Below are positions 8,809 to 64,000 of a DNA stretch of 64,000 nt, in pieces. Every line of letters starts with the position of its first letter. Within the stretch, counting starts at the first letter, position 1. Source of the DNA: an uncultured Lachnospiraceae bacterium (GTDB lineage Bacteria; Bacillota; Clostridia; Lachnospirales; Lachnospiraceae); assembly GCA_934339135.1 (NCBI GenBank), contig CAKRHP010000006.1, positions 62,001 through 126,000 on the forward strand, written 5' to 3'. Made by a program: the position numbers and the translations under genes. The notes beneath the pieces were generated by a model, which saw only the letters and a program-made list of their open reading frames with translations, made no database searches and had not been told where the DNA came from.

Positions 8809-9543
8809 CTATTTTATCATTAGTGCCTCATAACGCGCCACGTCAATGAAATCCTGCACAAAAGGAGTTGCCGGATGATGGCAGATTTCCTCCGGGGAAC
8901 CAATCTGCTCCACTCTGCCCTGATTCGTAACAATAATGGTGTCTGCCACCTCCATGGCTTCCTCCTGATCGTGAGTTACGAAAATGCTGGTCACACCAAC
9001 CTGACGGATCATTTCCTTAAGCCAGCTCCGCAGTTCCCGACGTACCTTGGCATCAATGGCCGCAAATGGTTCATCCAAAAGAAGAAGATGCGGATTAGGG
9101 GCAAGAGCACGGGCAAACGCTACTCTCTGCCGCTGTCCTCCGGAAAGCTGGTGGGGATAACGTTTGCCCAGATCTTTCATGGAGATCAGCTCCAAAAGCT
9201 CCTCTACACGTTCCTTGATCTCTGATTTTTTTCTTTTTTGAATCTCCAGACCGAAGGCAATATTATCCGCCACGGTCATATAACGAAACAGCGCATAATT
9301 TTGGAATACAAATCCAATGCCCCGTTTGCTGCCCGGAATATCATTAACTCTTTTTCCTTCTACCAGAATATCTCCGGAATCCGGCACATCCAGTCCGGCG
9401 ATCATCCGCAGGATCGTTGTTTTTCCACTGCCACTTGGTCCTAAAAGTGCCGCCAGATGTCCTTTTTCAATACCAAAAGACACATCCTGTGATGCATGGA
9501 AACCATCAAATGTTTTATTAATATCTTTCATTTCTATATACAT
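8809..9543 (-). CDS. cysA: Sulfate ABC importer, ATP-binding protein
   Basis: The 244-residue ATPase would power the adjacent fused permease. It has the Walker A GPSGSGKTT, Q-loop (FVFQNYALF), signature LSGGQRQRVAFARAL, Walker B LLLLDEPFAAID and switch His in FVTHDQEEA. It is shorter than typical CysA proteins (about 350 residues) and stops after the nucleotide-binding domain, lacking the C-terminal regulatory beta domain. The assignment to sulfate rests on the neighbouring sulfate-type binding protein and permease. The three genes lie in the order sbp, cysTW, cysA. Confidence 0.88.
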   Translation of the reverse strand: MYIEMKDINKTFDGFHASQDVSFGIEKGHLAALLGPSGSGKTTILRMIAGLDVPDSGDILVEGKRVNDIPGSKRGIGFVFQNYALFRYMTVADNIAFGLEIQKRKKSEIKERVEELLELISMKDLGKRYPHQLSGGQRQRVAFARALAPNPHLLLLDEPFAAIDAKVRRELRSWLKEMIRQVGVTSIFVTHDQEEAMEVADTIIVTNQGRVEQIGSPEEICHHPATPFVQDFIDVARYEALMIK

Positions 9544-9600
9544 AAGCTCATTCCTTTCCCTGATAGTATTTGCAAAACTTATCGCTCCGCCTTCTGCTTT

Positions 9601-11316
9601 TTACAGGCTTTCTCTGCGTTTTCCCACTGTCACAACCACAGACCGCAGGATCAACAGGATCACTGCCATGATCACCAGCAGAGACGATACTGCAAATGCC
9701 GCTGTGGTATTAAATTCGTTATAAAGGATCTCTACATGCAGGGGCAGTGTATTGGTGACACCTCTCAAATGACCGGAAATAACGGAAACTGCGCCAAATT
9801 CCCCCATTGCCCTTGCTGTACAAAGCACGACACCGTATAGCAATGCCCATCTCATGTGTGGAAATGTGATCCTGGAGAATATTTTCCATTTTCCGGCACC
9901 CATCAGCGCTGCCGCCTCTTCCTCCTGATTGCCCTGTGCCTGTAATACCGGCAAAAGTTCCCGGAATACAAAAGGAAATGTCACAAATATCGTAGCAAGA
10001 ATAACACCCGGCACAGCAAATACGATCTTTATATTATGTTCCTGTAAAAATCCCCCCATCCATCCCAGATTACCAAAGGTCAGGCTGAATACCAGACCGG
10101 CAATGACCGGAGAAATGGAAAACGGAATATCGATCAATGCTGCCAGGATCTGTCTCCCCCGAAAATAATATTTTGAGATCAGAACCGCCGCAAAAATACC
10201 AAATATCGTATTTACCACAACCGCAGATACTGTCGCAAACACTGTCAACTTCAATGCCTTGATCGTGTATTCATCCATAACCGCCTGCGCATATGCCTGC
10301 CAGCCATCCTTCAATGCACTGCTTACCACCAGGATTAACGGAAATATCATCATCACTACCATAAACAAAACTGCCACTGCGATCAAAATCCATTTTACCG
10401 GACGATGACTGTCCTTCTCATAGGGTTCTACAACCTTTTTCAAAGACGCTCCGTTTTCTCCCCCATTCTGAAAACGCTGCATATAGATCTGAACTGAATT
10501 GATCAAAAGCATCAGCACAAAGGAAATGATCAGAAGAACGACCGCAATCGCCGTCGCATCGGAATATTTAAACTGCTCCAGCTTTGACATGATCAGAAGC
10601 GGTGCGATCTGTGTTTTAAACGGAATATTTCCCGCAATAAAGACAACACTTCCGTATTCTCCAATTCCTCTGGCAAATGCCAGACCAAACCCTGCCAATG
10701 CAGCGGGATAAATCTCCGGCAGAATCACCTTAAAAAATGTTCGTATTCTTCCTGCACCCAGCATCATTGCCGCTTCCTCATAACCCCGGTCAAATTTTTC
10801 CAACACCGGCTGCACAGAACGCACCACAAACGGTATGCCTATAAATATCATTGCTATGGTAATTCCTGCTTTGGTATATGCGATCTTGATCCCTGCCTTT
10901 GCAAACAGTGCGCCGATCCATCCCTGATCCGAGTACAGTGTCGTCAATGAAATACCCGCAACTGCCGTGGGAAGTGCAAAGGGAAGCTCGATCATCCCGT
11001 CTAATATTCTTTTCCCCGGAAATTCATATCTTACCAGCACCCATGCCAGAATGATACCAAAAATAACATTGATCAATGCTGCGACAAACGCACAAGTCAG
11101 GCTGACCTGATAACCGGACAAGATCTGTCTGGATGTCACAACCTGTACGAATTCTGAAAAACTAAGCCGTCCTGCCGACCATATGATCGATGCTAACGGG
11201 ATCAACACGAGGCAGGATAACATAGTGACCGATACGCCAAGTGTCATGCCAAAGCCCGGAATCACACGCACCCCATGAGGATTTTTTCTCTTTATAATTC
11301 CTATTCCCTGCTGCAT
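9601..11316 (-). CDS. Fused CysT-CysW sulfate ABC permease
   Basis: The 571-residue membrane protein is two permeases in one chain. The N-terminal half (about 20-285) has the CysT-type EAA loop EEAAMMLGAGRIRTFFKVILPEIY; the C-terminal half (about 305-565) has the CysW-type loop EEEAAALMGAGKWKIFSRITF. Each half carries about six hydrophobic helices; a hydrophilic linker (QNGGENGASLKKVVEPYEKD) joins them. In most bacteria these are separate genes. No internal stop or frameshift is seen, so this is a real fusion forming the full transmembrane channel for the ATPase encoded next. Confidence 0.9.
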   Translation of the reverse strand: MQQGIGIIKRKNPHGVRVIPGFGMTLGVSVTMLSCLVLIPLASIIWSAGRLSFSEFVQVVTSRQILSGYQVSLTCAFVAALINVIFGIILAWVLVRYEFPGKRILDGMIELPFALPTAVAGISLTTLYSDQGWIGALFAKAGIKIAYTKAGITIAMIFIGIPFVVRSVQPVLEKFDRGYEEAAMMLGAGRIRTFFKVILPEIYPAALAGFGLAFARGIGEYGSVVFIAGNIPFKTQIAPLLIMSKLEQFKYSDATAIAVVLLIISFVLMLLINSVQIYMQRFQNGGENGASLKKVVEPYEKDSHRPVKWILIAVAVLFMVVMMIFPLILVVSSALKDGWQAYAQAVMDEYTIKALKLTVFATVSAVVVNTIFGIFAAVLISKYYFRGRQILAALIDIPFSISPVIAGLVFSLTFGNLGWMGGFLQEHNIKIVFAVPGVILATIFVTFPFVFRELLPVLQAQGNQEEEAAALMGAGKWKIFSRITFPHMRWALLYGVVLCTARAMGEFGAVSVISGHLRGVTNTLPLHVEILYNEFNTTAAFAVSSLLVIMAVILLILRSVVVTVGKRRESL

Positions 11317-49966: not shown

Positions 49967-50130
49967 ATTATTTCTCCAATTTCTATGATAACGTTTTTAT
50001 ATAAAGCTTATCACACATATATGAATAGTTTATGAATAAGCAGTTAATATGATATTTTAAAATTATGTTGCAGTATCTTATCTGTGTGGTGTATGATGAT
50101 ATTAACTGTATTGAAATGAGGTCTACAAAA

Positions 50131-52512
50131 ATGAATACAAAAGTATTACAGACATTAGAATATAATAAAATAATCAACCAGCTGATTTCTTTTGCCTCCT
50201 CTCCATCCGGCAAAGAATTTTGTCAGGACTTAACCCCCCGCACAGATCGCGATTGGATAGAAATGTCTCAACGGGAAACCTCTGATGCACTCACCCATAT
50301 TCTGACCAAGGGCGAGCTTTCCTTCTACGGAATTCAGGATATTCGTCCCTCTTTAAAACGACTGGAGATCGGATCCTCTCTGGGAAGTCATGAGCTTTTG
50401 GATATTGCGCTGCTTCTTTCCACTGCTGCATCCGTGAAGAACTACTTCCGCCAGGCACTCCGGGAAGATGACTCCACCGGTGATTCCCTTAACGAACGCT
50501 ATCAGCTGATCGAACCGTTATCTCCTCTGATGCAGGAGATCCGTCGATGCATTCCGGAACATGATGTCATTGCAGACGACGCTTCCACCGGACTCGCTCA
50601 GGTACGCAGACAGCTAAAGCTGACCAACGACCGTATCCACGAACAGTTAAACAGCATTCTCAATAGTTCTTCCCGGAGCATGCTCCAGGATTCCATCATC
50701 ACAATGCGAAACGGCCGATACTGCCTGCCCGTCAAAGCCGAATATCGTTCCTCCTTCCGTGGAATGCTTCATGACCAGTCAGCAACCGGTTCCACCCTTT
50801 TTATTGAACCGGCTGCTGTCGTGAAGCTGAACAACGACATTCGCCAGCTGGAGCTCCAGGAGCAGGAAGAGATCGACAAAATTCTTGCAGATCTGAGTAA
50901 TCTTGCTGCGGAGCAGTCCTTCTTCCTGGCACAGGATTACCGGGTTTTATGTGAACTGGATTTTATTTTTGCCCGCGCCATGCTCTCCAAAAAGATGCAT
51001 GGTACACGACCTCTTTTCCCGGCAGAGGGATATATTGAGATCAAGAACGGACGGCATCCCCTGATCGATCCCAAAAAGGTCGTTCCTATTGATATTCATA
51101 TCGGAAAAGACTTTTCTCTTCTGGTAGTAACCGGACCAAATACCGGCGGCAAGACAGTTTCACTGAAAACCGTAGGCCTTTTTTGTCTGATGGGACAGGC
51201 CGGTCTTCATATTCCGGCATTTGATAACTCCTGTCTGAAGATTTTTGATGAAATCTACGCTGATATCGGTGACGAACAGAGTATCGAACAGAGCCTGAGT
51301 ACCTTTTCTTCTCATATGGTCAATACTGTGTCGATTCTGGAAAAAGCAGATTCCAACAGTCTGGTACTTTTTGACGAGCTTGGTGCCGGTACCGATCCTA
51401 CCGAGGGGGCTGCTCTCGCCACAGCAATCCTTGCCAATCTGCACAAACGAGGCAGTCTGGTGATGGCAACCACGCACTACAGCGAGTTAAAGCTGTACGC
51501 CCTGCAGACACCGGATGTTCAAAACGCCTGCTGCGAGTTTGATGTATCAACCCTGCAGCCAACCTACCGTCTTTTGATCGGTATTCCGGGAAAAAGTAAT
51601 GCATTTGCTATTTCCGGCAAGCTGGGCTTATCCCCAGAGATCATTGAAGATGCCAAAGACCGTGTTTCTTCCGATTCCCAAAATTTTGAAGATGTCTTGA
51701 GCGATCTCGAAGCATCCCGGATCAAGCTGGAACAGGAGCACAAAACGATTTCTGAAAACCGCAAAGAAATTTCACGTCTCAAAAAAGAACTTCGTGAGAA
51801 AACAGAGAAACTGGAGCAGTCCCGCGAAAAGATTCTGCAAAATGCCAATCAGGAGGCAAGCCGCATCCTTGCAGAAGCCAAAAATGTGGCGGATGATACC
51901 ATACGGAAATATACCAAATGGGCCAAAAGCGACCGCCATATTCAGGAAATGGAGAAAGAGCGGGCCGAATTACGTAACCGGATGAACAAGCACCAGAATC
52001 AGTCCGGAAGCAAACCTCAAAAGAGAAAAAAGAAATCCATCAAAGCTTCTGATCTGATGATCGGTTCTAACGTTCATATATTAACCTTAAACGCAGACGG
52101 TACGGTCAGCACCCTGCCGAATGAGAAAGGGGATCTTTTTGTACAAGCTGGTCTCCTGCGCACTCAGGTCAACATCAAAGATCTGGAACTGCTTCCGGAA
52201 GAAAAAACAAAACAAACAGAAAAACGCCACAGCGGAAGCGGAAAGATCCGTATTGACAAGGCCGCTTCTGTTCACCAGGAAGTAAACCTCATCGGCATGA
52301 CCGTCGATGAAGCAATGCCTGTATTAAATAAATATCTGGATGATGCTTATCTGGCACATATGACACAGGTAACCGTGATACACGGCCGTGGAACCGGAGC
52401 ACTCCGTAAGGCTGTCCATCAACAGCTTGCCCGTTTAAAATATGTAAAGTCTTATCGCCTTGGTGAATTTGGCGAAGGGGATATGGGAGTTACCATCGTA
52501 ACTTTCAAATAA
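50131..52512 (+). CDS. mutS2: Endonuclease MutS2
   Basis: The 793-residue protein has the MutS core and ATPase (Walker A VVTGPNTGGKTVSLKTVG, Walker B SLVLFDELGAGTDPTEG, ATTHYSELK), a long coiled coil (about 520-650) and a C-terminal Smr nuclease domain (LIGMTVDEAMPVLNKYLDDA, TVIHGRGTGALRKAVHQQL). MutS2 lacks the mismatch-recognition domain and is linked to recombination control and collided-ribosome rescue. The start at MNTKVL has GAGGT about ten bases upstream. It is followed 27 bases later by a response regulator. Confidence 0.95.
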   Translation: MNTKVLQTLEYNKIINQLISFASSPSGKEFCQDLTPRTDRDWIEMSQRETSDALTHILTKGELSFYGIQDIRPSLKRLEIGSSLGSHELLDIALLLSTAASVKNYFRQALREDDSTGDSLNERYQLIEPLSPLMQEIRRCIPEHDVIADDASTGLAQVRRQLKLTNDRIHEQLNSILNSSSRSMLQDSIITMRNGRYCLPVKAEYRSSFRGMLHDQSATGSTLFIEPAAVVKLNNDIRQLELQEQEEIDKILADLSNLAAEQSFFLAQDYRVLCELDFIFARAMLSKKMHGTRPLFPAEGYIEIKNGRHPLIDPKKVVPIDIHIGKDFSLLVVTGPNTGGKTVSLKTVGLFCLMGQAGLHIPAFDNSCLKIFDEIYADIGDEQSIEQSLSTFSSHMVNTVSILEKADSNSLVLFDELGAGTDPTEGAALATAILANLHKRGSLVMATTHYSELKLYALQTPDVQNACCEFDVSTLQPTYRLLIGIPGKSNAFAISGKLGLSPEIIEDAKDRVSSDSQNFEDVLSDLEASRIKLEQEHKTISENRKEISRLKKELREKTEKLEQSREKILQNANQEASRILAEAKNVADDTIRKYTKWAKSDRHIQEMEKERAELRNRMNKHQNQSGSKPQKRKKKSIKASDLMIGSNVHILTLNADGTVSTLPNEKGDLFVQAGLLRTQVNIKDLELLPEEKTKQTEKRHSGSGKIRIDKAASVHQEVNLIGMTVDEAMPVLNKYLDDAYLAHMTQVTVIHGRGTGALRKAVHQQLARLKYVKSYRLGEFGEGDMGVTIVTFK

Positions 52513-52539
52513 ATCAAGGAATGAAATGGAGAAGATGAA

Positions 52540-53247
52540 ATGGCTGAAAAACAAAAAATTTTAATTGTAGACGATGACAATAATATCGCTGAGCTTGTAA
52601 GCATGTATTTGGTAAAAGAATGCTTTGATACTTACATCGCAAATGACGGGGAAGCCGCTCTGACTGCCATCACAAGTTATCAACCAAATCTTATTGTTTT
52701 GGACATTATGCTTCCCGGCATCACTGGATACGACGTTCTCCGGGAGCTTCGTAAAACATCAAACCTCCCTGTCATCATGCTTTCTGCCAAGGGCGAAACC
52801 TTCGACAAAGTTCTCGGACTCGAGCTGGGAGCTGATGATTATGTAATGAAACCCTTTGATACAAAGGAACTGGTTGCCAGAATCAAAGCAGTTCTGCGCC
52901 GCTATACCATAGAATCATCCGCACAGGAAGCCGAAACGATTCCAAAAGAATGTGTTACTTATCCTAACCTGATCATCAATCTCACCGACTACTCTGTTTA
53001 CTATTTCAAACAAAGAGTAGAGATGCCCCCAAAAGAGTTGGAACTTTTCTACTTCCTTGCTTCACATCCAAATCAGGTATTTACCCGTGAACAGCTTCTA
53101 GATCATATCTGGAGCTATGATTACATTGGAGATACCCGTACCGTAGATGTCCATATCAAACGACTTCGTGAAAAGTTTTCCCAGCCTGCCGAATGGAACA
53201 TCGCCACGGTATGGGGTGTTGGTTATAAATTTGAATATCACGCATAA
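52540..53247 (+). CDS. OmpR/PhoB family response regulator
   Basis: The 235-residue regulator has a receiver domain (ILIVDDDNNIAEL, phospho-acceptor Asp in LIVLDIMLPGITG, Lys in YVMKPFDTKE) and a winged helix (PPKELELFYFLASHPNQVF, TRTVDVHIKRLREKF, VWGVGYKFE). It forms a pair with the following kinase and may share a message with mutS2. Confidence 0.94.
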   Translation: MAEKQKILIVDDDNNIAELVSMYLVKECFDTYIANDGEAALTAITSYQPNLIVLDIMLPGITGYDVLRELRKTSNLPVIMLSAKGETFDKVLGLELGADDYVMKPFDTKELVARIKAVLRRYTIESSAQEAETIPKECVTYPNLIINLTDYSVYYFKQRVEMPPKELELFYFLASHPNQVFTREQLLDHIWSYDYIGDTRTVDVHIKRLREKFSQPAEWNIATVWGVGYKFEYHA

Positions 53248-53273
53248 ATCACAACTTTGAACGGAGAATTTCC

Positions 53274-54701
53274 ATGAAACTATCAATTCGTTCTATTTAC
53301 GTTGCCATCTATCTGCTTCTGGCAGCGGTAATGTTTGTACTAATACATTTTCTTGGAGTTCATCTGATATCGGACTCCCTTATTACTGAACGAAAAGCGG
53401 CACTTTACGAAGAGGCAAGTGCTCTTTCGAAACGATATTTTTTTAATGTCAGATCCATTGACGCATTTGATGACCAGACCGAATCTACTCTGCGAGAACG
53501 TATGTCTTCCCTGCAGACCATGAGTCATGCCCGTTATTTTCTGGTGGACGGTACCGGCAGGATCTCCGTAGACTCCGCAGAACAAAACAGCCTTGAGGGA
53601 CAAAACTTCAACGACTTAAATCCTACATTCTTAGACAATGATACCTATATGGGGCATCTCAACAGCTCATATCTTCCAAAAGAATCCCTGTCCATTATCT
53701 ATCCACTGTCTGGTGACCATGATATAAACGGGTATCTTGTCATTATGACCTCCCTAAAAGAACTTCGTATCAGCGCCCGCCATCTGACAAAGAGTTTTCG
53801 TATATGCTTTGTCCTGTTTTTTCTGGTACTTCTGTTCATTTTGTTGGAATTATACTGCCTGACACTGCATCCGCTCCGTCAGCTTTCCCTCACGATCCGG
53901 GAATATTCCCAGGGACACTTTAAGACAAAAATGAAGAATCTTCCTCTCCGGGAATATGACTCTTTGACAACAGCCATCCATAATCTGGCGTCCTCCAGCA
54001 AAAATGCCGGTGCTTATCAAAAAGACTTTGTAGCGAATGTTTCTCACGATTTTCGATCTCCTCTGACCACTATCCGGGGATATATCGGAGCCATGCTGGA
54101 CGGTATGATCCCACCTGAGACTCAGGAAAAATATCTGAAAATCATTTTAATGGAGACGGAACGTCTGACGAAACTAACAGAACAGCTTTTAGAAATGAAC
54201 CGCTATGAAAACAATGGTATTATCTTAAACTACAGTACCTTTGATATTAACGAAGTCATCCGCAATGCTGCTTCCAGCTTCGAAAAGCGCTGCACGGAAA
54301 AAAAAATCTCCATTCATCTGATTTTCAGTGCTCCATCCCTGTATGTAGATGCCGACCGGGACAAAATATCGCAGGTCATCCAAAATCTCATTGACAATGC
54401 AGTAAAATTCAGTTCCCCGGATTCTTCTATTGAGATTCAGACCACGATCCAGAAGGATAAAATTTTCGTCACAGTCAGCGATCACGGTATTGGAATCCCC
54501 GAAGAAAGCCTTCCTCACATATGGGATCGCTTTTATAAAACGGATGTCTCCCGTGGAAAGGATAAAACCGGCTCCGGTCTTGGGCTTGCGATCACCAAGG
54601 AAATTATTGATGCCCACCATGAATATATTCATGCCACCAGCATTTTGGGAAGTGGCACTGACTTTTCATTCTCACTGCCACATCATGCATCGGGAATATA
54701 A
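53274..54701 (+). CDS. HAMP-containing sensor histidine kinase
   Basis: The 475-residue kinase has two membrane helices (about 10-32 and 165-190) enclosing an extracellular sensor, a HAMP linker, the HisKA motif ANVSHDFRSPLTTIRGY (phospho-acceptor His) and a HATPase domain (NLIDNAVKFSSPD, SDHGIGIPEESL, GSGLGLAITKEI). GGAGAATTTCC precedes the ATG. It works with the regulator just upstream; the signal is unknown. Confidence 0.94.
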   Translation: MKLSIRSIYVAIYLLLAAVMFVLIHFLGVHLISDSLITERKAALYEEASALSKRYFFNVRSIDAFDDQTESTLRERMSSLQTMSHARYFLVDGTGRISVDSAEQNSLEGQNFNDLNPTFLDNDTYMGHLNSSYLPKESLSIIYPLSGDHDINGYLVIMTSLKELRISARHLTKSFRICFVLFFLVLLFILLELYCLTLHPLRQLSLTIREYSQGHFKTKMKNLPLREYDSLTTAIHNLASSSKNAGAYQKDFVANVSHDFRSPLTTIRGYIGAMLDGMIPPETQEKYLKIILMETERLTKLTEQLLEMNRYENNGIILNYSTFDINEVIRNAASSFEKRCTEKKISIHLIFSAPSLYVDADRDKISQVIQNLIDNAVKFSSPDSSIEIQTTIQKDKIFVTVSDHGIGIPEESLPHIWDRFYKTDVSRGKDKTGSGLGLAITKEIIDAHHEYIHATSILGSGTDFSFSLPHHASGI

Positions 54702-54724
54702 TGCTTTATTTTGCTTTATAATCT

Positions 54725-54759
54725 AAAAGAGGAATCTGCCAAAACAGATTCCTCTTTTG
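54725..54759. terminator. Bidirectional terminator between the kinase and pfkA
   Basis: AAAAGAGGAATCTG pairs perfectly with CAGATTCCTCTTTT around a short loop, between converging genes. Confidence 0.92.
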
Positions 54760-54777
54760 TTTAATAATATATGATTC

Positions 54778-55758
54778 CTATTCTCTTGTACCAAGTACGC
54801 GGGCAATCTCATACTCATACTCGTCAATGGACTTGGTCATTGCAAATGCCTCATCTACATCCACATCATAAATTTTCCCGTTTTTATATCCGATCAGACG
54901 GTTCTTTCTCCCCTGATCGATGACATCAACTGCATACGCACCCATCATGGAAGCATAAAAACGATCTCTGGCAGTTGGGCTTCCACCTCTCTGCAGATGT
55001 CCAAGGATCGTTGCTCTTGTTTCAATGCCGGTTGCTTCCTCAATTCTCTTTGCCAACTCGTCAGAATGACCCACACCCTCTGCATTAACAACGATCTGAT
55101 GTGTCATACCAAGCTCTCTGTTCTTATGGATCTGCTCCAGAAGTGCATCATAGTTATTGTCAAACTTCTCCGGCAGAAGAATCTCCTCTGCACCATTTGC
55201 AATACCGCACCACAATGCAATATATCCAGCGGAACGTCCCATAACCTCAACAACGCTGCATCGCTCATGAGAATTTGATGTCTCACGAAGTCTGTCAATC
55301 GCCTCCATTGCGGTATTGACAGCAGTATCAAATCCAATCGTATAATCAGTATATGCAATATCCAGATCGATCGTACCCGGAATACCGATAATATTAACAC
55401 CAAATTTGGACAGATTCTTCGCTCCGGTAAAGGAACCGTCTCCTCCAATAACGATCAGCGTCTCGATTCCCATCTCCTTGCAGATCTCTGCCGCTTTCTT
55501 TTTTCCTTCTATCTCACGAAACTCTGCACTGCGGGCTGTAAACAAAAATGTACCGCCATGCTGCAGTTTTTCTGAAACATCCTTAAAAGTTAATAAATCC
55601 ATCTCTCTGTGAAGAATACCATTGTATCCTCTGCGAATACCATAGACATCATAGCCTCTGGTAATACCGGTACGAACAACCGCACGGATGGCTGCATTCA
55701 TGCCCGGCGCATCTCCTCCACTTGTAAGTACTCCGATCTTTCCTTTCTTTGTGCTCAT
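54778..55758 (-). CDS. pfkA: ATP-dependent 6-phosphofructokinase
   Basis: The 326-residue enzyme phosphorylates fructose-6-phosphate in glycolysis. Motifs: IGVLTSGGDAPGMNAAIRA, GGDGSFTGA with the Gly that favours ATP over pyrophosphate, the catalytic PGTIDLDI, and VEVMGRSAGYIAL. The residue after the catalytic Asp is Leu, where E. coli has Asn. The start at MSTKKG fits the family's N-terminus. It has its own promoter. Confidence 0.95.
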   Translation of the reverse strand: MSTKKGKIGVLTSGGDAPGMNAAIRAVVRTGITRGYDVYGIRRGYNGILHREMDLLTFKDVSEKLQHGGTFLFTARSAEFREIEGKKKAAEICKEMGIETLIVIGGDGSFTGAKNLSKFGVNIIGIPGTIDLDIAYTDYTIGFDTAVNTAMEAIDRLRETSNSHERCSVVEVMGRSAGYIALWCGIANGAEEILLPEKFDNNYDALLEQIHKNRELGMTHQIVVNAEGVGHSDELAKRIEEATGIETRATILGHLQRGGSPTARDRFYASMMGAYAVDVIDQGRKNRLIGYKNGKIYDVDVDEAFAMTKSIDEYEYEIARVLGTRE

Positions 55759-55878
55759 TTTTTCCTCCATTCTGCCACAAACAACCATGGCATCGTTAAT
55801 TATTTCTATGTATGATCTGTGCTGATCCCCCCAAATACCTGGAATACGCACAAAATATAATAATATGCACACATTTCT

Positions 55879-55907
55879 ATTTTATTATGATACGGGACTA
55901 TTTTCAA
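55879..55907 (-). promoter_or_regulatory. Promoter of pfkA
   Basis: TTGAAA, 17 bases and TAAAAT on the minus strand lie about 120 bases before the start codon. The rest of the roughly 500-base, A/T-rich gap up to the PadR gene holds the control sites of the divergent PadR operon and no gene that I can see. Confidence 0.45.
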
Positions 55908-56045
55908 TCCCTTTTTCAATATTTTTCAAAAAACTTTACATTTTTAAAGGAATAACGCTTTTTAACAAATAATCTATATCACCCGTTTTCATATTTTGTA
56001 AAAAAGGGCTGATTTTTCATCAAAAGTATGATATAATTGTGACAT

Positions 56046-56073
56046 ATTGTTGGCAATAGGCAATATAGCCAAC
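56046..56073 (+). repeat. TGTTGGC/GCCAACA inverted repeat
   Basis: Seven-base arms enclose a 13-base spacer in the gap between pfkA and the PadR1 gene, just downstream of a TATAAT box at 56032-56037. It may be an additional regulatory site; no protein can be assigned. Confidence 0.35.
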
Positions 56074-56159
56074 ATTGATCATAAAAAATTGTATATTTTC
56101 GTCACTTGCATTATTTTACAATCCGTACGATAATGTAATTAGAGAAAATATGTAAAGAT

Positions 56160-56193
56160 ATGTCTGAATATAATATGAATATTTATAAGACAT
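56160..56193 (+). promoter_or_regulatory. Candidate PadR operator overlapping a -10 box (operon 1)
   Basis: ATGTCT and AGACAT form outer arms and AATAT/ATATT inner arms of an imperfect palindrome. A TATAAT at 56169-56174 lies within it, the same arrangement as the perfect site before the second PadR gene, although the sequence differs. No good -35 box is visible. Confidence 0.4.
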
Positions 56194-56275
56194 GATCAGA
56201 GGGAAAGAGTTAGAGATTGGCATATTGTTCCTAAGAAGGAATAATATGTACTCCGAAAGGAAAGGGATGAATGTT

Positions 56276-59143
56276 ATGATGTTTAACACCAGTGAGTTAA
56301 TTCTCGATGCAGTTATTTTATCAATTGTGGCCAGTACGCCTGAGGGCATTTCGGGCTTTAAGATTGTCCAGAATGTACGCTCAAAAATTGATGTACCGGA
56401 GAACACATTCTATCCTTTGTTAAAGCAGATGCAGGCTGATGGCTATCTGGAAGTTTACCATAAGGATATCGGTGGTCGAAGCCGTCGTTTTTACAAGATT
56501 ACGGATGCCGGACGTGAGCATCTTACATATTGTCAGCAAACCTGGAACAGTTATCTGCAGGGAGCCAGTTCCCTTTTGATGAATGGAGCTGCACAGCCAC
56601 AGCCGGCTGCAGCACCTGCACCGGCTCCTCAGCCACCGGCAGCTTCTTCCTCTCAACCACAGCCGGCTCCTGTTATGAATGCTGCTACTCAGGCAGTTCC
56701 CGTTTCTGAACCACAACCGGTTTCTCCTATGACAGCCGCTACTCAGGCAGTTCCCGTTTCTGAACCGCAACCGGTTCCTCCTATGACAGCCGCTACTCAG
56801 GCAGTTCCTGTTTCCGGATCACAGCCGGTTCCTGTCATGGAGACTGCTCCTCAGGTGACTCCTGTTTCTGAACCTCAGCCGGTTCCTGTCATGAACGCAA
56901 CGCCACAGATTAATCCGGCCATGATGCAGCAACAGCAGAATGCCGCTGATGCAGAGGATTCTTTCCATATTGGCGGCGCATCAGATGCCATGATGGATTT
57001 CGATTTTTCTATTGGTGATGATGACGCTGTAAATTCTGATGATATGGGATTTTCTTCTGATGGCGATTTATTTGAATTTGATAATATACCAGCATCTTCA
57101 TTTATTTCCTATGATGATGCTCCGGCAGAACCAATGCCAGAACCTGTCTATCCGGAACCTGTTGCTCCAATAATGGAAGCTGCTCCGGAACCTGTCACTG
57201 AACCTGTTGCTCCGATAATGGAAGCTGCTCCGGAACCTGTCACTGAGCCTGTTGCTCCGATGATGGATGCTGCTCCGGAACCTGTCACTGAGCCTGTTGC
57301 TCCGATGATGGATGCTGCTCCGGAACCTGCCACTGAGCCTGTTGTTCCGATGATGGATGCTGCTCCGGAACCTGCTACTGAGCCTGTTGCTCCGATGATG
57401 GATGCTGCTCCGGAACCTGCCACTGAGCCTGTTGCTCCGATGATGGATGCTGCTCCGGAACCTGCCATCGAACCCGTTACTCCAATCATGGAGACTGCTC
57501 CTGTTTATCAGGAGCCTGCCAGCGAGCCTGTTGCTCCAGTCATGGAAGCTTCTCCTGTTTATCAGGAACCTGCCGATGAGCCCGCTACAGAGACCATTGA
57601 TATGAATGCAGAGCCTGTTTATCAAGAGCCTGCTGATGAACCAGCTACAGAAACGATTGATATGAATACAGAGCCTGTTTATCAAGAGCCTGCCGATGAG
57701 CTTGCAACAGAAACTATTGATATGAATGCTCCTATTGAGGAGATGGTCTCAGACGTAGTCTCTGAGGAACCTGTTGAGGACGACGAGGCGGATTTCCTTG
57801 CAGAAATGGCAATGGGGGATTCTGATGAAAATGAGACGGATGATCTTCCGGAACTGGAAAGCTCCGTATCGGACATCGCCACTATTAACGCATTAGAAAG
57901 CATGCTGACACAGCTGCGTTCCTTCGAGTCCGTTATGGAGGCACATCCTGAGCCTGCTGCAGCTACCGAGGAGCCTTCCGCTAACTTAAACATTAATGAT
58001 ATCAATGCTGTTGCTGCGATGTTAAATCCAACTGAGGCTGACGAAGTTCCTGCTGATAATACAACAAGTCAGGAGTCATCTTCTACTCCGGTTCGCTATG
58101 CTGAAGTCCGAAATAAAGAAACCGATGATTCTGTCAACAGCCTTGTGGATCTTTTAAAAGATGATGATCAGCCAAAGAAACGTGGTTTCTTTGGACGTAA
58201 TAAAAAGAAAAATATCCCAAAGGAACTGATTGCAGATACCCCAAGATCTACCTCTACACCGATACCGGTACCAAGTCAGGTCAGAGCAAAATCAGAATCC
58301 TCGCCGATTCCTGTTTCTTCTTCCCGAATGCAGGAGGTTCGTAATCCGGACAGCGATGATTCTGTTAACAGTCTTGTGGATCTCTTGAAGGAGGATAATT
58401 CTTCTTCTAAGAAGAAAGGGCGTAAATCACGTTCTGCTGCTGATGAGTTCAGAGCTACCGCTGCAGATATTTCTGCAATGTCAAGTTCTGTTCCACTTCC
58501 AAAGCAGACATCTTCTTCCAATCCATTACGGGCATTTTCTTCATCAACACCATTACGGGCATTCTCTTCCTCCAATCCTGTCCGGGCATTTTCTTCATCC
58601 CGACCGGTTGGTCCTGTTCCAAAAGCTGAGAATTCCCAGTCAAAACCGGTATCCAGATCCAGTTACCGTGAAGTACCTGCCGACGATGCTGTTGGTGGAT
58701 TAGCAGATCTTCTTATGGAAGGAAAGCAGAGCAAATCTGCTACACCAAAGATTTTCAAACAGAGAATGGTTTCCAGCTCACAGCCTCTTGCAGGAGTTTC
58801 TTCTGAAACGCCTGTTCCGGAGACAGATTCCTCTGAGCTGCAGGCACACAAACCAGCGGCATCCAAATCCTTTGACGAAAAGGCAGCTGCTCCAAATGCG
58901 AAGCCTGTGGAGACCACCGCTACCATTACAAAACCTTTAGAGGCAAAAGCCATCAGCACAAAGCCAACAGAGGCAAAACCAGTGGAACCAAAATCTGTAG
59001 AAACCAAAGCAGTGGCTACTCCAAAGCCAGAGGCTGCAGAGCCGGCACCGGCTGCCCAGCCTGCGGAAGCTCCTATGGATGACTTCAAGCGTCGTCTGTT
59101 ACAGGCACACTTGATTTCCAATGAGGATGACAATAATAAATAA
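56276..59143 (+). CDS. PadR-family regulator with giant repetitive disordered tail (PadR1)
   Basis: The 955-residue protein has a PadR winged helix at residues 1-100 (FNTSELILDAVILSIV, PENTFYPLLKQMQADGYL, RRFYKITDAGREHL), clearly similar to the 110-residue PadR2 encoded 5.6 kb downstream. The remaining 850 residues are Pro/Ala/Glu/Ser-rich and probably disordered: 18-residue repeats, then 15-residue, then 20-residue, then 9-residue repeats. Three copies of a hydrophobic motif, DDSVNSLVDLLK, stand out at 617, 694 and 803 (third copy DDAVGGLADLLM). There is no membrane segment. The start at MMFNTS was chosen for the AAAGGG site and the match to PadR2. It is the first gene of the operon with HAAS1 and DUF4097-1. 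Confidence 0.8.
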   Translation: MMFNTSELILDAVILSIVASTPEGISGFKIVQNVRSKIDVPENTFYPLLKQMQADGYLEVYHKDIGGRSRRFYKITDAGREHLTYCQQTWNSYLQGASSLLMNGAAQPQPAAAPAPAPQPPAASSSQPQPAPVMNAATQAVPVSEPQPVSPMTAATQAVPVSEPQPVPPMTAATQAVPVSGSQPVPVMETAPQVTPVSEPQPVPVMNATPQINPAMMQQQQNAADAEDSFHIGGASDAMMDFDFSIGDDDAVNSDDMGFSSDGDLFEFDNIPASSFISYDDAPAEPMPEPVYPEPVAPIMEAAPEPVTEPVAPIMEAAPEPVTEPVAPMMDAAPEPVTEPVAPMMDAAPEPATEPVVPMMDAAPEPATEPVAPMMDAAPEPATEPVAPMMDAAPEPAIEPVTPIMETAPVYQEPASEPVAPVMEASPVYQEPADEPATETIDMNAEPVYQEPADEPATETIDMNTEPVYQEPADELATETIDMNAPIEEMVSDVVSEEPVEDDEADFLAEMAMGDSDENETDDLPELESSVSDIATINALESMLTQLRSFESVMEAHPEPAAATEEPSANLNINDINAVAAMLNPTEADEVPADNTTSQESSSTPVRYAEVRNKETDDSVNSLVDLLKDDDQPKKRGFFGRNKKKNIPKELIADTPRSTSTPIPVPSQVRAKSESSPIPVSSSRMQEVRNPDSDDSVNSLVDLLKEDNSSSKKKGRKSRSAADEFRATAADISAMSSSVPLPKQTSSSNPLRAFSSSTPLRAFSSSNPVRAFSSSRPVGPVPKAENSQSKPVSRSSYREVPADDAVGGLADLLMEGKQSKSATPKIFKQRMVSSSQPLAGVSSETPVPETDSSELQAHKPAASKSFDEKAAAPNAKPVETTATITKPLEAKAISTKPTEAKPVEPKSVETKAVATPKPEAAEPAPAAQPAEAPMDDFKRRLLQAHLISNEDDNNK
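56675..56890 (+). repeat. 54-base tandem repeat, four units (in PadR1)
   Basis: Four consecutive in-frame units encode variants of the pattern ATQAVPVSEPQPVPPM. Units 1-3 are most alike; unit 4 has diverged. Confidence 0.8.
57161..57475 (+). repeat. 45-base tandem repeat, seven units (in PadR1)
   Basis: Seven in-frame units encode VAPMMDAAPEPATEP with small changes (Met/Ile, Asp/Glu, Ala/Val); an eighth, diverged unit follows. Near-identity at the DNA level suggests recent expansion by slippage or recombination and likely length variation among strains. Confidence 0.9.
57551..57730 (+). repeat. 60-base tandem repeat, three units (in PadR1)
   Basis: Three in-frame units encode PVYQEPADEPATETIDMN with minor substitutions. 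Confidence 0.85.
58514..58603 (+). repeat. 27-base tandem repeat (in PadR1)
   Basis: Three full units and a partial fourth encode SSNPLRAFS-type nine-residue repeats, a basic/aromatic stretch within the otherwise acidic tail. Confidence 0.75.
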
Positions 59144-59238
59144 TTGATATAACAATTATATCTATTCATGGTATCCATTGCTTTTCGGCAATGGATACTT
59201 GTATAAAACCGTATTTTATACAAAAAGGGGAGGAAAAC

Positions 59239-60642
59239 ATGACAAAATTTGAATTTTTAGGCGACTTGAGCCGCCTGATCGCTGATCTTCCGCAGGAAGA
59301 AGTGGAACAGGCGATGGAATATTATGAGGATTATTTTGCAGATGCCGGTCCTGAAAAAGAACAGGAAATCATCCGTGACTTTATCTCTCCGGCTTATATT
59401 GCCGAACAGCTCCGCGAAGCTTCTTTACAACGTCAAAGAGCTGCGGCACAGGCAAGCGTTCAGGAAGAGGAACGACTTGCAGCAGCCGCCAGAGCACAGG
59501 CTGCTGCCGGTAAACCACCGGTATATTCCAGAAAGCTTGCAGCGCAAGCACAAAAAAATGCTTCTATGGCCACTTCAACCGGATTTGTAACACAAACTCC
59601 GACGGTAAAGACAAAATCACCGATTCCCCCTTCTCAACCGCAAAATACTCCTTCTGCTAATGGAGTACCCCAACCGGCACCAATACAGGGGAATCCTTCC
59701 GGCACTGCTATGCCGTACTCACAGACATTCACTCCCGCTCAGGCTGTGGCTTCTGTTTCTACCGTACCGACTCCGGCCCAGGCTGCGGCTGCCTCTATCG
59801 CAGGCACTCCGACTCCCGCTCAGGCTGCGGCTTCTATTGCCGCATCACCAATGTCAGAGCAGACAGCCCCGGTTTCTTCTATGCCGGTCGGGACTGCACC
59901 AACTCCGGTACAACCTGCTGGTTCCAACCAACCACAAAATGTGTCTTCCATACAGAGGCCACACACCGTCGGCCAGACCGCCGGTATAGCTCCTCAGACA
60001 TCCGCTACTCCTCAACAGCAGATATCTTCCACATCTGCTCCAAAGGCAGCCGGGGGACCTTCAAAAGCTTCCGCTATGCGTAACTCTATCTTCCGCGACG
60101 ATACGGAGGAGGACAAAAAGAAAGCAGAAGAAGAACTTGCAAAACGCAATAAAACAAAGGTTGATATTAAATCCATCAACTCTACTACGTCCAAAGTAGA
60201 TAAAAAAATATCACGTTCAGAAGCAAAACGAAATGCTGCCATAGAAAAGGCAAACAATGCCGAGCGATACAGTAGTTCCAAAAAAATGGTCATCGCAATC
60301 GTTCTGTTGATAACTTGTCCGATCTGGCTGACACTTTTGGGTGTCATTCTTGGAGTATTTGTCCTTGGAATTTGTGCTGTAATCGGATGCATCCTTGCTG
60401 GAATCGGATGTTTTGCCGCAAGCCTTTCATCCATCGCACTGTCTCTTCTGGCCATACTCTCTGTTCAGATTTCAACCGGCATCTTTACATTGGGATGCGT
60501 ATTATTCCTGTTCGCCGCAGGATGCGGATTATGTTTTCTCGGCTACAAGCTGGCAACGCGAATTCTTCCGGGGGCATACTTCAGTATCAAGGTATTATTT
60601 AACGGAATGAAAGCAAGACTGGCTCGCCTTGCTCTCAAATAA
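59239..60642 (+). CDS. HAAS (DUF1700) membrane protein with long Ala/Pro linker (HAAS1)
   Basis: The 467-residue protein starts with a HAAS/DUF1700 domain (about 1-65: FEFLGDLSRLIADLPQEE, then AMEYYEDYFADAGPEKEQE). A low-complexity linker of about 230 residues rich in Ala, Pro, Gln and Ser follows, then a charged stretch (DDTEEDKKKAEEELAKRNK) and four hydrophobic helices in the last 118 residues. HAAS proteins are helical signalling adaptors that usually accompany PadR regulators. AAAGGGGAGG precedes the ATG. Its paralogue downstream is about half as long, the main difference being this linker. Confidence 0.87.
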   Translation: MTKFEFLGDLSRLIADLPQEEVEQAMEYYEDYFADAGPEKEQEIIRDFISPAYIAEQLREASLQRQRAAAQASVQEEERLAAAARAQAAAGKPPVYSRKLAAQAQKNASMATSTGFVTQTPTVKTKSPIPPSQPQNTPSANGVPQPAPIQGNPSGTAMPYSQTFTPAQAVASVSTVPTPAQAAAASIAGTPTPAQAAASIAASPMSEQTAPVSSMPVGTAPTPVQPAGSNQPQNVSSIQRPHTVGQTAGIAPQTSATPQQQISSTSAPKAAGGPSKASAMRNSIFRDDTEEDKKKAEEELAKRNKTKVDIKSINSTTSKVDKKISRSEAKRNAAIEKANNAERYSSSKKMVIAIVLLITCPIWLTLLGVILGVFVLGICAVIGCILAGIGCFAASLSSIALSLLAILSVQISTGIFTLGCVLFLFAAGCGLCFLGYKLATRILPGAYFSIKVLFNGMKARLARLALK

Positions 60643-60686
60643 TCTGACAGACAGAAGCAAACAATTGCTTCAGAATGGAGAAAAGC

Positions 60687-61601
60687 ATGAATAATAAAAT
60701 TAAAATCATCATTGCAGTCGGTATCATAGGTATTTTGATCATGGTGGCAGGTTTTGTTATGGGTAGCGGTCCATCCTCTATTCCAGCCATTTTTTCCGGT
60801 CAGAACCTTCCAACCGGTGCTGCAAATATTAAGGACGTTTCATCCAGCGACATCCGCTCTATCGAACTAAATTTATTTTCCAGTAAGATTTCCATTAAGT
60901 CCGGAGAAAATTTTGATCTTTCCGGCAGCGGCCAATTTGATGGCTATGTTCTGAATGGAGTATTATATGCAGGTGCTACAGAGGCAAAAAGAACCGCAAA
61001 TGTCTTAGGCATGAAATTTAATGTTCCATCAAAATGGATCTGTGGTTATGGAAGCTATGTTCTTGTCATCCCTCCTGATGCAAAGCTGGATGAGATCACG
61101 ATCAATACAAACCATTGTGATATCACCTGTGATTCTTTAATTGCCAGCAAGATCAATATTAATGTAAATCATGGAGATTTAAAAGTCAATCAGCTTACTG
61201 CTGACAATGCTGCCATATCTGTAGATGGTACATTAGAGGCAGCCTCCTCACAGATTGCCATGAGCGGTAATATCTCTGCCAAGCAACGTCTGACACTGGG
61301 CACTGCCGGTGCTGCAAAGGATAATACAATGAATAACACAACCATATCCAATAAACGTGGTGGTATTACATTATATGCGAAGCTGACAGGAAATGCTTCT
61401 GTCCAGACAAGCCGTGGAAATCTTGAAGCTGTTTTATATGGCAGCCATACTAATTATACGTTACCGGCCGCTACAGCCAATCTTCTCATTCATGATTCCT
61501 CGATCCAGGAAGACAACACAAAAGATAATTCCACAGAGCTCTTCGGTACTGTGGGAGTGGATGTCTCAAAAGGAAATGCATCCATCTCCTTTGAACAATA
61601 A
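60687..61601 (+). CDS. DUF4097 (toastrack-like) exported protein 1
   Basis: The 304-residue protein has one N-terminal membrane helix (IIIAVGIIGILIMVAGFVMG) and then a repetitive beta-strand domain typical of DUF4097: short strands such as SKISIKSGENF, INVNHGDLKV and VQTSRGNLEAVLYG, with frequent G-D/N-L turns. Proteins of this type are found with PadR/HAAS or Lia/phage-shock systems and are thought to sense or shield the envelope (family knowledge). ATGGAGAAAAGC precedes the ATG. It is the last gene of operon 1. Confidence 0.82.
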   Translation: MNNKIKIIIAVGIIGILIMVAGFVMGSGPSSIPAIFSGQNLPTGAANIKDVSSSDIRSIELNLFSSKISIKSGENFDLSGSGQFDGYVLNGVLYAGATEAKRTANVLGMKFNVPSKWICGYGSYVLVIPPDAKLDEITINTNHCDITCDSLIASKININVNHGDLKVNQLTADNAAISVDGTLEAASSQIAMSGNISAKQRLTLGTAGAAKDNTMNNTTISNKRGGITLYAKLTGNASVQTSRGNLEAVLYGSHTNYTLPAATANLLIHDSSIQEDNTKDNSTELFGTVGVDVSKGNASISFEQ

Positions 61602-61689
61602 TTCATACTTCGACCAAGTGCAATCATGGCAGAGAAGCAGCACTTTCAGATTCTGGAGTTATAAACACCCTTTCATAAAGGTTATACAG

Positions 61690-61728
61690 GCATTCAAAGA
61701 TAAAGAATATCTTTGAATGCTTTTTTTC
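61690..61728 (+). terminator. Terminator of PadR-HAAS operon 1
   Basis: GCATTCAAAGATA pairs perfectly with TATCTTTGAATGC around a short loop and is followed by seven T residues. It separates the two tandem operons. Confidence 0.93.
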
Positions 61729-61805
61729 ATAAACAGAAAATCCTGATAATATAGAATAATACCGGGATGAATGATTTTTTGTTTTATATAAAATTATCTT
61801 ATGTC

Positions 61806-61834
61806 TTGACAGGATATATTATACATCGTATAAT
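61806..61834 (+). promoter_or_regulatory. Perfect consensus promoter of PadR-HAAS operon 2
   Basis: TTGACA, exactly 17 bases, TATAAT: the ideal sigma-A sequence. The -10 box lies within the left arm of the palindrome described next, so repression must be tight for such a strong promoter not to be constitutively on. Confidence 0.85.
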
Positions 61835-61857
61835 ATCACCATATTATACGATGTATA
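61820..61857 (+). promoter_or_regulatory. Perfect 17-bp inverted repeat, candidate PadR2 operator
   Basis: TATACATCGTATAATAT and its exact reverse complement flank a CACC spacer. The element covers the -10 box and probable start site and lies 50 bases before the PadR2 start codon, a classical autorepression layout. It lacks a T run, so it is not a terminator. Confidence 0.8.
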
Positions 61858-61907
61858 GTATTATATATTGTAAGGTTATATCAGCATCAACACGAAAGGA
61901 GTATTTC

Positions 61908-62240
61908 ATGGTATTTAACACTGGCTCTGCGCTATTAGATGCCATTGTGCTTGCCGTTGTGGAACGGTCTTCCGTGGGAACCTATGGCTATAAGATCACA
62001 CAGGATGTACGATCTGTCATAAATGTTTCGGAATCAACACTCTATCCGGTTCTCCGAAGACTACAGAAGGATAACTGCCTTTCTGTATATGACAGAGAGT
62101 GCCGCGGGCGAAACCGCCGGTACTATCAGATTACCGAACAAGGCAGGGTACAATTAAACCTCTATCGGCAGGAATGGCACAGTTATTCCCATAAGATCAG
62201 TCAACTGCTGTTGCACACATCAACAGACACAAATCAATAA
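61908..62240 (+). CDS. PadR family transcriptional regulator (PadR2)
   Basis: The 110-residue regulator is a minimal PadR: FNTGSALLDAIVLAVVERSS, the recognition region SESTLYPVLRRLQKDNCL, and the wing and C-terminal helix RNRRYYQITEQGRVQLNLYRQEW. Homology with the first 100 residues of PadR1 is evident across the whole length. It follows GAAAGGAG. It probably represses its own operon through the palindrome upstream and is the first gene before HAAS2 and DUF4097-2. Confidence 0.94.
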   Translation: MVFNTGSALLDAIVLAVVERSSVGTYGYKITQDVRSVINVSESTLYPVLRRLQKDNCLSVYDRECRGRNRRYYQITEQGRVQLNLYRQEWHSYSHKISQLLLHTSTDTNQ

Positions 62241-62262
62241 ACGAAAAGAAATGAGGAGAATT

Positions 62263-63030
62263 ATGACAAAATATGAATTTTTAGGAGATTTAAGCCGGTT
62301 ACTGGCAGATCTTCCGGAGGAGGAACGCAAACAGGCGCTTCACTATTACGAAGATTATTTTGCCGATGCCGGAGAAGATAACGAACAGGATGTCCTGAAA
62401 GAGCTTGGCTCTCCGGAAGTAATTGCCGATCAGATCAAAAATGACGGCACTGAAGACATTTCCTACGGAGACAGTGCCGGTTTCCATGCGGCCGATGCAC
62501 CTCAGTTATACCGAACCGCTGAACACACACAGGATCACCACACACAGAACACTTCCGGTACCGAGGACGGCTGGCATAAAATGTCCGGCTCACAAAATTC
62601 CAGTAATAACCGGCAGAAAAAATCCGGCTTTTTTGCCAAAATGGATCAATCAAATACTCTCATCATGATCATTGTCCTGATCGTCACCTCTCCAATCTGG
62701 GGATCCGTATTGATCAGTATTGCCGGCATCCTTTTGGGTATTGTGAGTGCCATCGTTGGTATTTTTGCTGCAATGATCTTTGGCGGTGCCGGATCAGCGA
62801 TCGGAGGTGTCGCTACCATCGTTGGCGGAATCATCGGCATTATCGCCGGAAAGACTGCCGGAGGTATTCTTACCATTGGCGTTGGATGTCTTTTATTTGC
62901 GCTCGGCTCCGCATTCTGCTATCTGGGAATATTCCTTGTCATCCGATTATTCCCGTTGCTCTGGAAACAGCTCCAGCGTTTCTGGGACTGGATCACAGGA
63001 AAACTTACAGGAAAGGAGCAGTCTTATTAG
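62263..63030 (+). CDS. HAAS (DUF1700) membrane protein (HAAS2)
   Basis: The 255-residue protein repeats the HAAS1 design in short form: HAAS domain at 1-65 (YEFLGDLSRLLADLPEEE, then HYYEDYFADAGEDNEQD), a Ser/His/Asn-rich linker of about 60 residues, then four Gly/Ile-rich hydrophobic helices ending in KLTGKEQSY. It would couple membrane state to PadR2 (inference from family context). GAGGAGAATT precedes the ATG. Confidence 0.9.
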   Translation: MTKYEFLGDLSRLLADLPEEERKQALHYYEDYFADAGEDNEQDVLKELGSPEVIADQIKNDGTEDISYGDSAGFHAADAPQLYRTAEHTQDHHTQNTSGTEDGWHKMSGSQNSSNNRQKKSGFFAKMDQSNTLIMIIVLIVTSPIWGSVLISIAGILLGIVSAIVGIFAAMIFGGAGSAIGGVATIVGGIIGIIAGKTAGGILTIGVGCLLFALGSAFCYLGIFLVIRLFPLLWKQLQRFWDWITGKLTGKEQSY

Positions 63031-63043
63031 ACAAGTGTAAATT

Positions 63044-63994
63044 ATGAAAAAAAGAAATATATTTTTGATCATTTTATCCGGAATATTTTTGATCGGTATA
63101 GTATGTATTATTGCAGGAATCATGATGGGAGGGACGCTTTTTTCCTTTCATATCAACCCGAAAACCTCATCGGAATCATATACGGAAAGGGGATCCATGA
63201 CTCTGTCTGATAAGGAAGCTTCACAGATCACAGGCTTCGACTTCGACTTTAAAGCTCAGGAGGTTGTGATCCGGTCCGGGGAATCCTATGGCATTGAAGC
63301 TAAAAATGATAATGAAAATAACCGCTATCATTCCTACATTAAGGACGGCGTCTGGCATGTGGAAACTCCTGATAATGCAAATGCCGATGTTACAGTCCTC
63401 GACCATACGATCCAGATTCCTTTTGGTCACAGGATCACGAATGACAGTCTCTATACGATCACCATCCCCTCCGATGTAACCTTTGATAAAGCGAATATTT
63501 CCTTAGCGGCAGGGGCATGCCGTATCAATACACCTCTGATTGCCGGACAATCCACCATAAAAATCGGCGCCGGGGATTTAACGGCAAAGGAGTTGCAGGC
63601 GAAGACATTAACGATCAAGATTGGTGCCGGAGAAGGCATTATTGACAAGCTTCAGGTTACGGAACATTGCACCGCTAAGGTCGGTGTGGGAAATCTGGAA
63701 CTCGGGGATAAGGCCTCCTCCTCTGATATCCATAATCTTGTCTCCAAAACAGCCATGGGAAATACCGAGATCACGGGAAAACTCACGGGAAACAGTACAT
63801 TGAAATGTGCCACCGGGAATCTGGATCTGACACTGGCAGGTGCAAAAAGCAATTACAACTTTAATACGAGCACCACCATGGGAGACATTACCTTCAAAAA
63901 GGATTCCCAGCCAGAAAACAGTTCCTCAGAAAATTATGGAGACGTAACCCTCAAATGCAGCATGGGAGCAATTACGGTGGACTTTATGAACTGA
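63044..63994 (+). CDS. DUF4097 (toastrack-like) exported protein 2
   Basis: The 316-residue protein has an N-terminal membrane helix (IFLIILSGIFLIGIVCIIAGIMMG), then a beta-helix-like DUF4097 domain with regular short repeats (KIGAGDLTAKELQ, KIGAGEGIIDKLQV, KVGVGNLELGDK, KCSMGAITVDF). It is a diverged paralogue of the protein encoded at the end of operon 1. Its start follows the HAAS2 stop by 13 bases with no strong ribosome-binding site, so translational coupling is likely. The gene ends six bases before the window edge. Confidence 0.85.
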   Translation: MKKRNIFLIILSGIFLIGIVCIIAGIMMGGTLFSFHINPKTSSESYTERGSMTLSDKEASQITGFDFDFKAQEVVIRSGESYGIEAKNDNENNRYHSYIKDGVWHVETPDNANADVTVLDHTIQIPFGHRITNDSLYTITIPSDVTFDKANISLAAGACRINTPLIAGQSTIKIGAGDLTAKELQAKTLTIKIGAGEGIIDKLQVTEHCTAKVGVGNLELGDKASSSDIHNLVSKTAMGNTEITGKLTGNSTLKCATGNLDLTLAGAKSNYNFNTSTTMGDITFKKDSQPENSSSENYGDVTLKCSMGAITVDFMN

Positions 63995-64000
63995 CGAAAA

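Follow-up and report, generated by a model that had tools for sequence, protein, structure and literature searches.

HAAS and PadR have been proposed, from comparative genomics, to form a signalling pair that provides an alternative to two-component systems in membrane stress, and the part of that work devoted to the HAAS-PadR-Toastrack module describes PadR as a standalone wHTH protein (PMC11237479). At the locus considered here, which lies in a window of 64,000 nucleotides (the whole stretch of DNA that was analysed) from an uncultured Lachnospiraceae bacterium, PadR does not stand alone. Because it continues into a tail of 852 residues (residues 104-955), approximately eight times as large as the DNA-binding domain, the cassette to which it belongs is a variant of this module. 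As judged from its homologues, the tailed PadR is one protein, and it is a real, conserved and lineage-specific elaboration of a known module. A long, conserved region of predicted disorder is unexpected on a bacterial repressor that is normally minimal.

Organisation of the tailed cassette

The genes are arranged in the order pfkA (on the minus strand and named from sequence similarity), tailed PadR, HAAS, Toastrack and a second cassette, with the following features:

56106..56134, forward strand, candidate promoter TTGCAT-17-GATAAT, from a by-eye reading of aligned upstream regions
56276..59143, forward strand, gene for tailed PadR (955 aa), for which the more upstream ATGs 56267 and 56192 are also possible starts
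59171..59198, forward strand, intercistronic palindrome or hairpin GTATCCATTGC-N6-GCAATGGATAC, between tailed padR and HAAS
59239..60642, forward strand, HAAS membrane protein (PF22564), 467 aa, with a net positive linker of approx. 310 aa
60675..61601, forward strand, DUF4097 Toastrack protein (PF13349)
61908..63994, forward strand, second, ordinary cassette of short PadR, HAAS and Toastrack, which serves as an internal comparison

In the open reading frame listing, positions 56192-59143 form one uninterrupted frame that holds the PadR domain and the tail together. Translation probably starts at 56276, which was chosen from the AGGAAAGGG stretch (56267 is possible), and the product predicted from this codon has 955 amino acids, a mass of 101.6 kDa and a pI of 4.2. 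The motif MMFNTSE was found in all 121 homologue sequences checked, and the annotated starts of 162 homologues differ (MNVMMF in 77, longer in 73, MMF in 11 and MFN in one). The start at 56576 given by an earlier, sequence-only reading of this DNA is codon 101 of the 955-aa protein as read here; that reading was also incomplete in that the neighbouring HAAS and Toastrack genes went unmentioned. The -10 element and the spacing of the candidate promoter are identical in all four aligned species, and the -35 element is TTGCAT in three of them and TTGAAA in the fourth (L004). When upstream inverted repeats were compared as candidates for the PadR operator, none was common to all four species.

The HAAS gene adjoining PadR was assigned by a PF22564 match of 35.2 bits (cut-off 27), and Toastrack by a PF13349 match that is barely above its cut-off (24.0 versus 22.9 bits). 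Judged by sequence similarity, L002, whose PadR domain lies on a separate contig (L003), and L004 retain the tailed cassette. In L001, a transposase-like gene (9389-10888) separates tailed PadR from HAAS, and the N-terminus of HAAS is missing in this MAG. Upstream of the short PadR of the second cassette in the window there is a 21-bp inverted repeat (61816-61861, 95% complementary, 4-nt gap), which is possibly the operator of that cassette.

The palindrome after tailed padR (59171-59198 in the window) recurs at the corresponding place in L001, L002 and L004, with 11-bp arms that are unchanged and a loop that varies. Its core is single-copy in each of three genus genomes, and the whole palindrome occurs once in the window versus zero occurrences expected. 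The stretch is predicted to fold well as RNA, with z values of -5.5 in the window, -3.3 in L002 and -5.8 in L004, and a T-run is absent downstream. The palindrome could be either an operator or an mRNA hairpin.

The linker between the HAAS domain and the first membrane helix has 310 aa and a net charge of +11 in the window, 316 aa and +11 in L001, and 291 aa and +15 in L002. A pattern scan of 46 sources returned 25 rows from 22 of them; after removal of four tailed-cassette rows and three duplicates, the 18 other distinct HAAS linkers have 64-254 aa and net charges of -14 to +1, and 17 of them are negative. Among these 18 is the linker of the second cassette in the same window, with a net charge of -9. 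These values suggest, from three related loci and with one counter-example, an opposite-charge pairing between the HAAS linker and the PadR tail; the pairing is not universal because the HAAS linker of L004, which is also tailed, has 171 aa and a net charge of -6.

The PadR domain

56276..56584, forward strand, PadR winged-helix domain, residues 1-103 (PF03551, structure match and tree)

The N-terminal domain belongs to the PadR family by its PF03551 match (37.9 bits, cut-off 27), and the closest solved structure is PDB 3l7w (E 2.2e-14). At 955 aa, the protein does not have the small size usual for PadR, a customary trait that lies outside the Pfam definition of PF03551. PadR regulators bind DNA sequence-specifically as dimers. 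The AlphaFold2 model of the tailed protein places a helix at residues 77-103 with modest confidence. An unrooted tree of 42 PadR domains unites the nine tailed ones in a single group (100/100, bootstrap not settled), and 18 positions that are fixed in this group differ from most of the 33 short PadRs. Several of these positions sit in the TFYPLLKQM region, which we take to be the DNA-reading helix of PadR; thus, tailed PadR may choose an altered operator.

Compared with L001, the PadR domain has a dN/dS of 0, with zero amino-acid changes. Its synonymous divergence from L001 is low (0.32, window 56276-56584 versus L001 6019-6327; 0.84 in the comparison with L003), and in the same comparison with L001 the last 455 residues of the tail reached 1.10 and pfkA 0.63. 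Recombination at the 5' end is a possible explanation of the low value.

Repeats and spacers of the tail

The N-terminal part of the tail, together with the end of the PadR domain, contains the following segments:

56516..57916, forward strand, K/R-free stretch, residues 81-547 (467 residues, 88 of them acidic), which starts within the PadR domain
56585..56938, forward strand, spacer 1, Pro/Ala/Gln-rich 54-bp (18-aa) repeats, of varying length in homologues
56951..57115, forward strand, acidic conserved segment SFHIGG..DLFEFDN..FISYDD, dN/dS 0.038 versus L001
57116..57760, forward strand, spacer 2, 45-bp and 60-bp repeats, acidic and Pro-rich, of varying length in homologues

Tandem Repeats Finder identified arrays of 54 bp (4.4 copies), 45 bp (7.6), 60 bp (2.9) and 27 bp (3.3), and additional 54-bp rows that span the junction of two arrays. 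Every period is divisible by three and hence in frame, which agrees with the four kinds of tandem repeat in one frame that had been read from the sequence. Both anchor motifs of the repeat region were found in 75 of 121 sequences; in these, 187 to 305 residues separate the start from MMDFD and 162 to 298 residues separate MMDFD from INALESML, and the remainder after INALESML is nearly constant (419-437 residues). Against L001, dN/dS is 0.20 in spacer 1 and 0.18 in spacer 2, values affected by a codon alignment that is partly arbitrary within repeats, and 0.037-0.076 in the conserved parts of the tail, with no value for one part in which dS is saturated; the last 455 residues gave 0.051. Against L002, the spacers gave 0.30 and 0.27 and the other parts 0.07-0.10; the divergence of L004 is too high for dS in most parts. 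Since dN/dS is low along the tail, the tail behaves like a translated and constrained protein. By these comparisons, the repeats are variable spacers, and constraint sits in short predicted helices and one coil block. The sequence-only reading is incomplete in that the repeats on which it had placed its emphasis are the least constrained part, and constraint lies in the helical motifs and a K/A/T/P-rich block.

The composition of the tail is low-complexity, and its net charge is -89. The longest K/R-free run in 1000 shuffled tails was 176 residues, versus 467 observed, and in 162 homologues it ranges from 85 to 509 (median 374). Segment 597-821 is basic (pI 9.7). Aromatic residues make up 3.1% of the tail and glycine 1.9%, and Trp is absent. 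Charge segregation is 0.0257, and the highest value among 500 shuffles was 0.0167.

Conserved motifs and predicted structure

The conserved C-terminal half of the tail carries a series of short motifs:

57782..57814, forward strand, motif DEADFLAEM, predicted helix 503-513, in a conserved island
57860..57943, forward strand, predicted 28-residue helix 529-556 (SDIATINALESMLTQLRSFESVM), pLDDT 71-82 at residues 531-550, island 537-557
58115..58162, forward strand, SLVDLL motif copy 1, then PKKRGFFGRNKKK, predicted helix 614-629
58346..58399, forward strand, SLVDLL motif copy 2, then KKKGRKSRS, predicted helix 691-708
58688..58717, forward strand, SLVDLL-type motif copy 3 (GGLADLL), predicted helix 805-814
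58859..59026, forward strand, strongly conserved block KSFDEKAAAPNA..PVETTATITKPLEAKAISTKP..VETKAV.TPK, residues 862-917, predicted coil
59078..59116, forward strand, C-terminal motif DDFKRRLLQAHLI (F[KR].RL..A.L helix), predicted helix 936-943, in 162 of 162 homologues

When 34 selected members were aligned (effective number 16.4), conserved islands emerged at residues 1-104, 499-519, 537-557, 685-710, 858-921 and 930-949. The best conserved part of the tail is the VETKAV.TPK-bearing block (residues 862-917), which is rich in K, A, T and P. The remaining SLVDLL copies misalign across the 34 members because copy number differs. All 162 homologues contain SLVDLL-type motifs (two in 3, three in 148, four in 4 and five in 7), which bears out the suggestion that the tail is multivalent. 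In particular, the motif occurs 4-5 times in the L004 group of 11 proteins (P0121-P0131), most of which have no strongly Pro-rich spacer, although P0127 does have one.

The AlphaFold2 model, built on a shallow alignment of 34 rows, has a mean pLDDT of 41.6 and values below 50 for 760 of 955 residues; the PadR domain itself reaches only about 35-70. Tail helices were placed at residues 214-222, 503-513, 529-556, 576-583, 614-629, 691-708, 723-735, 805-814 and 936-943. Subject to this low confidence, the tail is predicted to be mostly disordered, as the sequence-only reading had supposed, and to contain short helices. Conservation in residues 501-955 averages 0.73 inside predicted helices versus 0.56 outside, and the overlap of helices with conservation was equalled by only 4 of 454 circular shifts.

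No Pfam match ties the motifs of the tail to any known binding motif. The tail also gave weak Pfam matches (KIP1, IL11, DUF5327 and SasG_E) and, on the L004 repeats, a DUF384 match (5e-5, yet under its cut-off); these, and two Rfam matches far under the gathering score, were taken as chance. Second copies of the C-terminal block or the SLVDLL region were sought elsewhere in three genus genomes, and none was found.

Homologues and distribution

In all 162 distinct homologues (drawn from the best 120 of 182 and the best 120 of 200 protein-search matches), PadR lies close to the N-terminus and the C-terminal motif falls in the final 45 residues. Among them is a 918-aa protein of Clostridium sp. 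OM07-10AC, a commensal relative whose name suggests a cultured strain. It might be argued that translation stops after PadR or that the repeats are mis-assembled, since short PadRs elsewhere end at this point (101-117 residues after FN in 28 of 28 loci). Such an explanation is extremely improbable given that PadR and tail are joined in every homologue retrieved and that the tail is under in-frame selection. An assembly artefact, which the sequence-only reading had considered unlikely, is rejected on the strength of the joined homologues among the matches listed, as is a separate tail gene, a finding by which that reading could have been refuted; the single PadR-plus-long-tail protein of unusual length that it described is upheld.

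Among the genomes searched, the tail appears confined to one Lachnospiraceae genus. All three genomes of this genus that were searched, from three species, are tailed. In 397 genomes of the family, the tail search gave three matches; those in G001 and G002 are genuine, and the match in G062, a KPAET-rich protein, was taken as chance. The PadR domain itself matched in 215 of the 397. The 150 strongest PadR rows of this sample comprise two tailed proteins, 145 frames that do not exceed 181 aa and three longer frames, none of which is an independent tail: a stop separates PadR from the next gene in G245 (TAG) and G032 (TGA), and G275 encodes a PadR-HAAS fusion that lacks a tail of this kind (L047, 2105-3370, minus strand, a membrane protein of 421 aa in one frame). 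Of the 392 genomes of the order sample, 51 gave a match at E 1e-26; these account for 52 rows, of which one is tailed and 51 are short (at most 152 aa). Plasmid searches gave 14 matching records, the best of which covers 11% of the query, and viral contigs gave zero matches.

A search for long proteins with a usual PadR, which can detect only sequences that share 5-residue words, gave 17 matches (approx. 329-1046 aa), none with a long K/R-free tail; their longest K/R-free run is 93 residues, and the highest proline fraction after PadR is 0.064. Seven of the 17 carry PF22564 and are PadR-HAAS fusions. P0168-P0170 combine PadR, HAAS and DUF4097 domains in single proteins of 470-478 aa, which are either genuine fusions or assembly products. 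Among the open-licence papers listed by the literature searches, covered mainly by title and abstract, no description of a PadR with a comparable tail was found.

Possible roles of the tail

The best fit, a tentative one, is that the tail serves as a docking arm between DNA-bound PadR and a membrane HAAS complex. The PadR domain would bind an operator, perhaps within its own cassette, the long acidic spacers would supply reach, and docking would fall to the repeated amphipathic motifs together with the C-terminal helix, with either the membrane HAAS protein or the membrane itself as the most likely partner. Envelope stress would then alter docking, and the regulator would be released or repositioned. 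Consistent with such a role are the operon context with PF22564 and PF13349, kept in relatives, the published proposal of HAAS and PadR as a signalling pair, the PadR-HAAS fusions found elsewhere (G275 and the seven long proteins), the selection on the tail, the coincidence of predicted helices with high conservation, the SLVDLL-type motifs of every homologue, and the long net-positive HAAS linker in three of four tailed loci. Against it stand the relatedness of those three loci and the negative linker of L004, the predicted coil at 862-917, which falls outside the docking account, the HAAS N-terminus missing in L001, the low overall confidence of the AlphaFold2 model and the lack of a Pfam match between the motifs and a known binding motif. 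It is rather doubtful that evolution has given the regulator and its membrane sensor a matched pair of long, oppositely charged disordered arms, by which a DNA-bound repressor would reach the membrane and stress would be passed by polyelectrolyte and short-motif contact rather than by phosphorylation or a small ligand.

The same motifs could instead act as weak contacts in a charge-segregated tail that clusters the regulator at the operator or nucleoid, the condensate scaffold suggested by the sequence-only reading. Multivalency and a charge segregation above the shuffle maximum speak for this unlikely alternative, and there is a precedent in BtRho, in whose IDR short conserved charged motifs control condensation by complex coacervation, as far as the published account describes it (PMC13269538). 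The paucity of aromatic residues and glycine and the absence of Trp tell against it; given the aromatic content, condensation via aromatic stickers is not favoured, and the charge segregation leaves room for coacervation with a polycation. The exceptional K/R-free run from residue 81 and the strongly negative net charge would also suit an acidic autoinhibitor, in which this block lowers the affinity for non-specific DNA or covers the DNA-binding face for as long as the C-terminal motifs remain unengaged. That role seems improbable: it leaves the conserved SLVDLL and C-terminal motifs unexplained, and the run has just 85-164 residues in P0122, P0123, P0125, P0127 and L004. Least expected of these functions, and quite unlikely, is a nucleoid-membrane tether in which PadR is a mere DNA anchor, the tail organises the chromosome or division proteins, and regulation is secondary. 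The layout recalls FtsZ and SSB; however, synteny with the HAAS and Toastrack genes favours local regulation, and no division gene was recognised among the ORFs of 50065-64000.

Because the window also holds an ordinary PadR-HAAS-Toastrack cassette for comparison, what the tail does to membrane-to-DNA signalling is directly testable. Tailed PadR would help to reveal how the HAAS-PadR pair transmits its signal.

Comparison with known systems

FtsZ and SSB each consist of a folded domain, a variable disordered linker and a conserved C-terminal peptide. The linker-plus-tip layout of tailed PadR resembles theirs. BtRho of Bacteroides is a transcription factor of a gut bacterium with a long IDR that holds short conserved charged motifs, to which tailed PadR, with its long tail of predicted disorder, is comparable; however, the proteins are unrelated, and condensation has been shown for BtRho, whereas for tailed PadR it is a hypothesis (PMC13269538). 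The Listeria proteins LstR and LltR are PadR repressors that mainly control their own membrane-protein operons, which is also the kind of setting in which tailed PadR is found, although their abstract-level description mentions no long tail (PMC6624303). The closest counterpart is the HAAS-PadR dyad with Toastrack, in which, as outlined in the proposal, the PadR, HAAS and Toastrack genes are likewise consecutive; in contrast to that dyad, PadR here carries an additional 852 residues, and its HAAS partner is extended too (PMC11237479).
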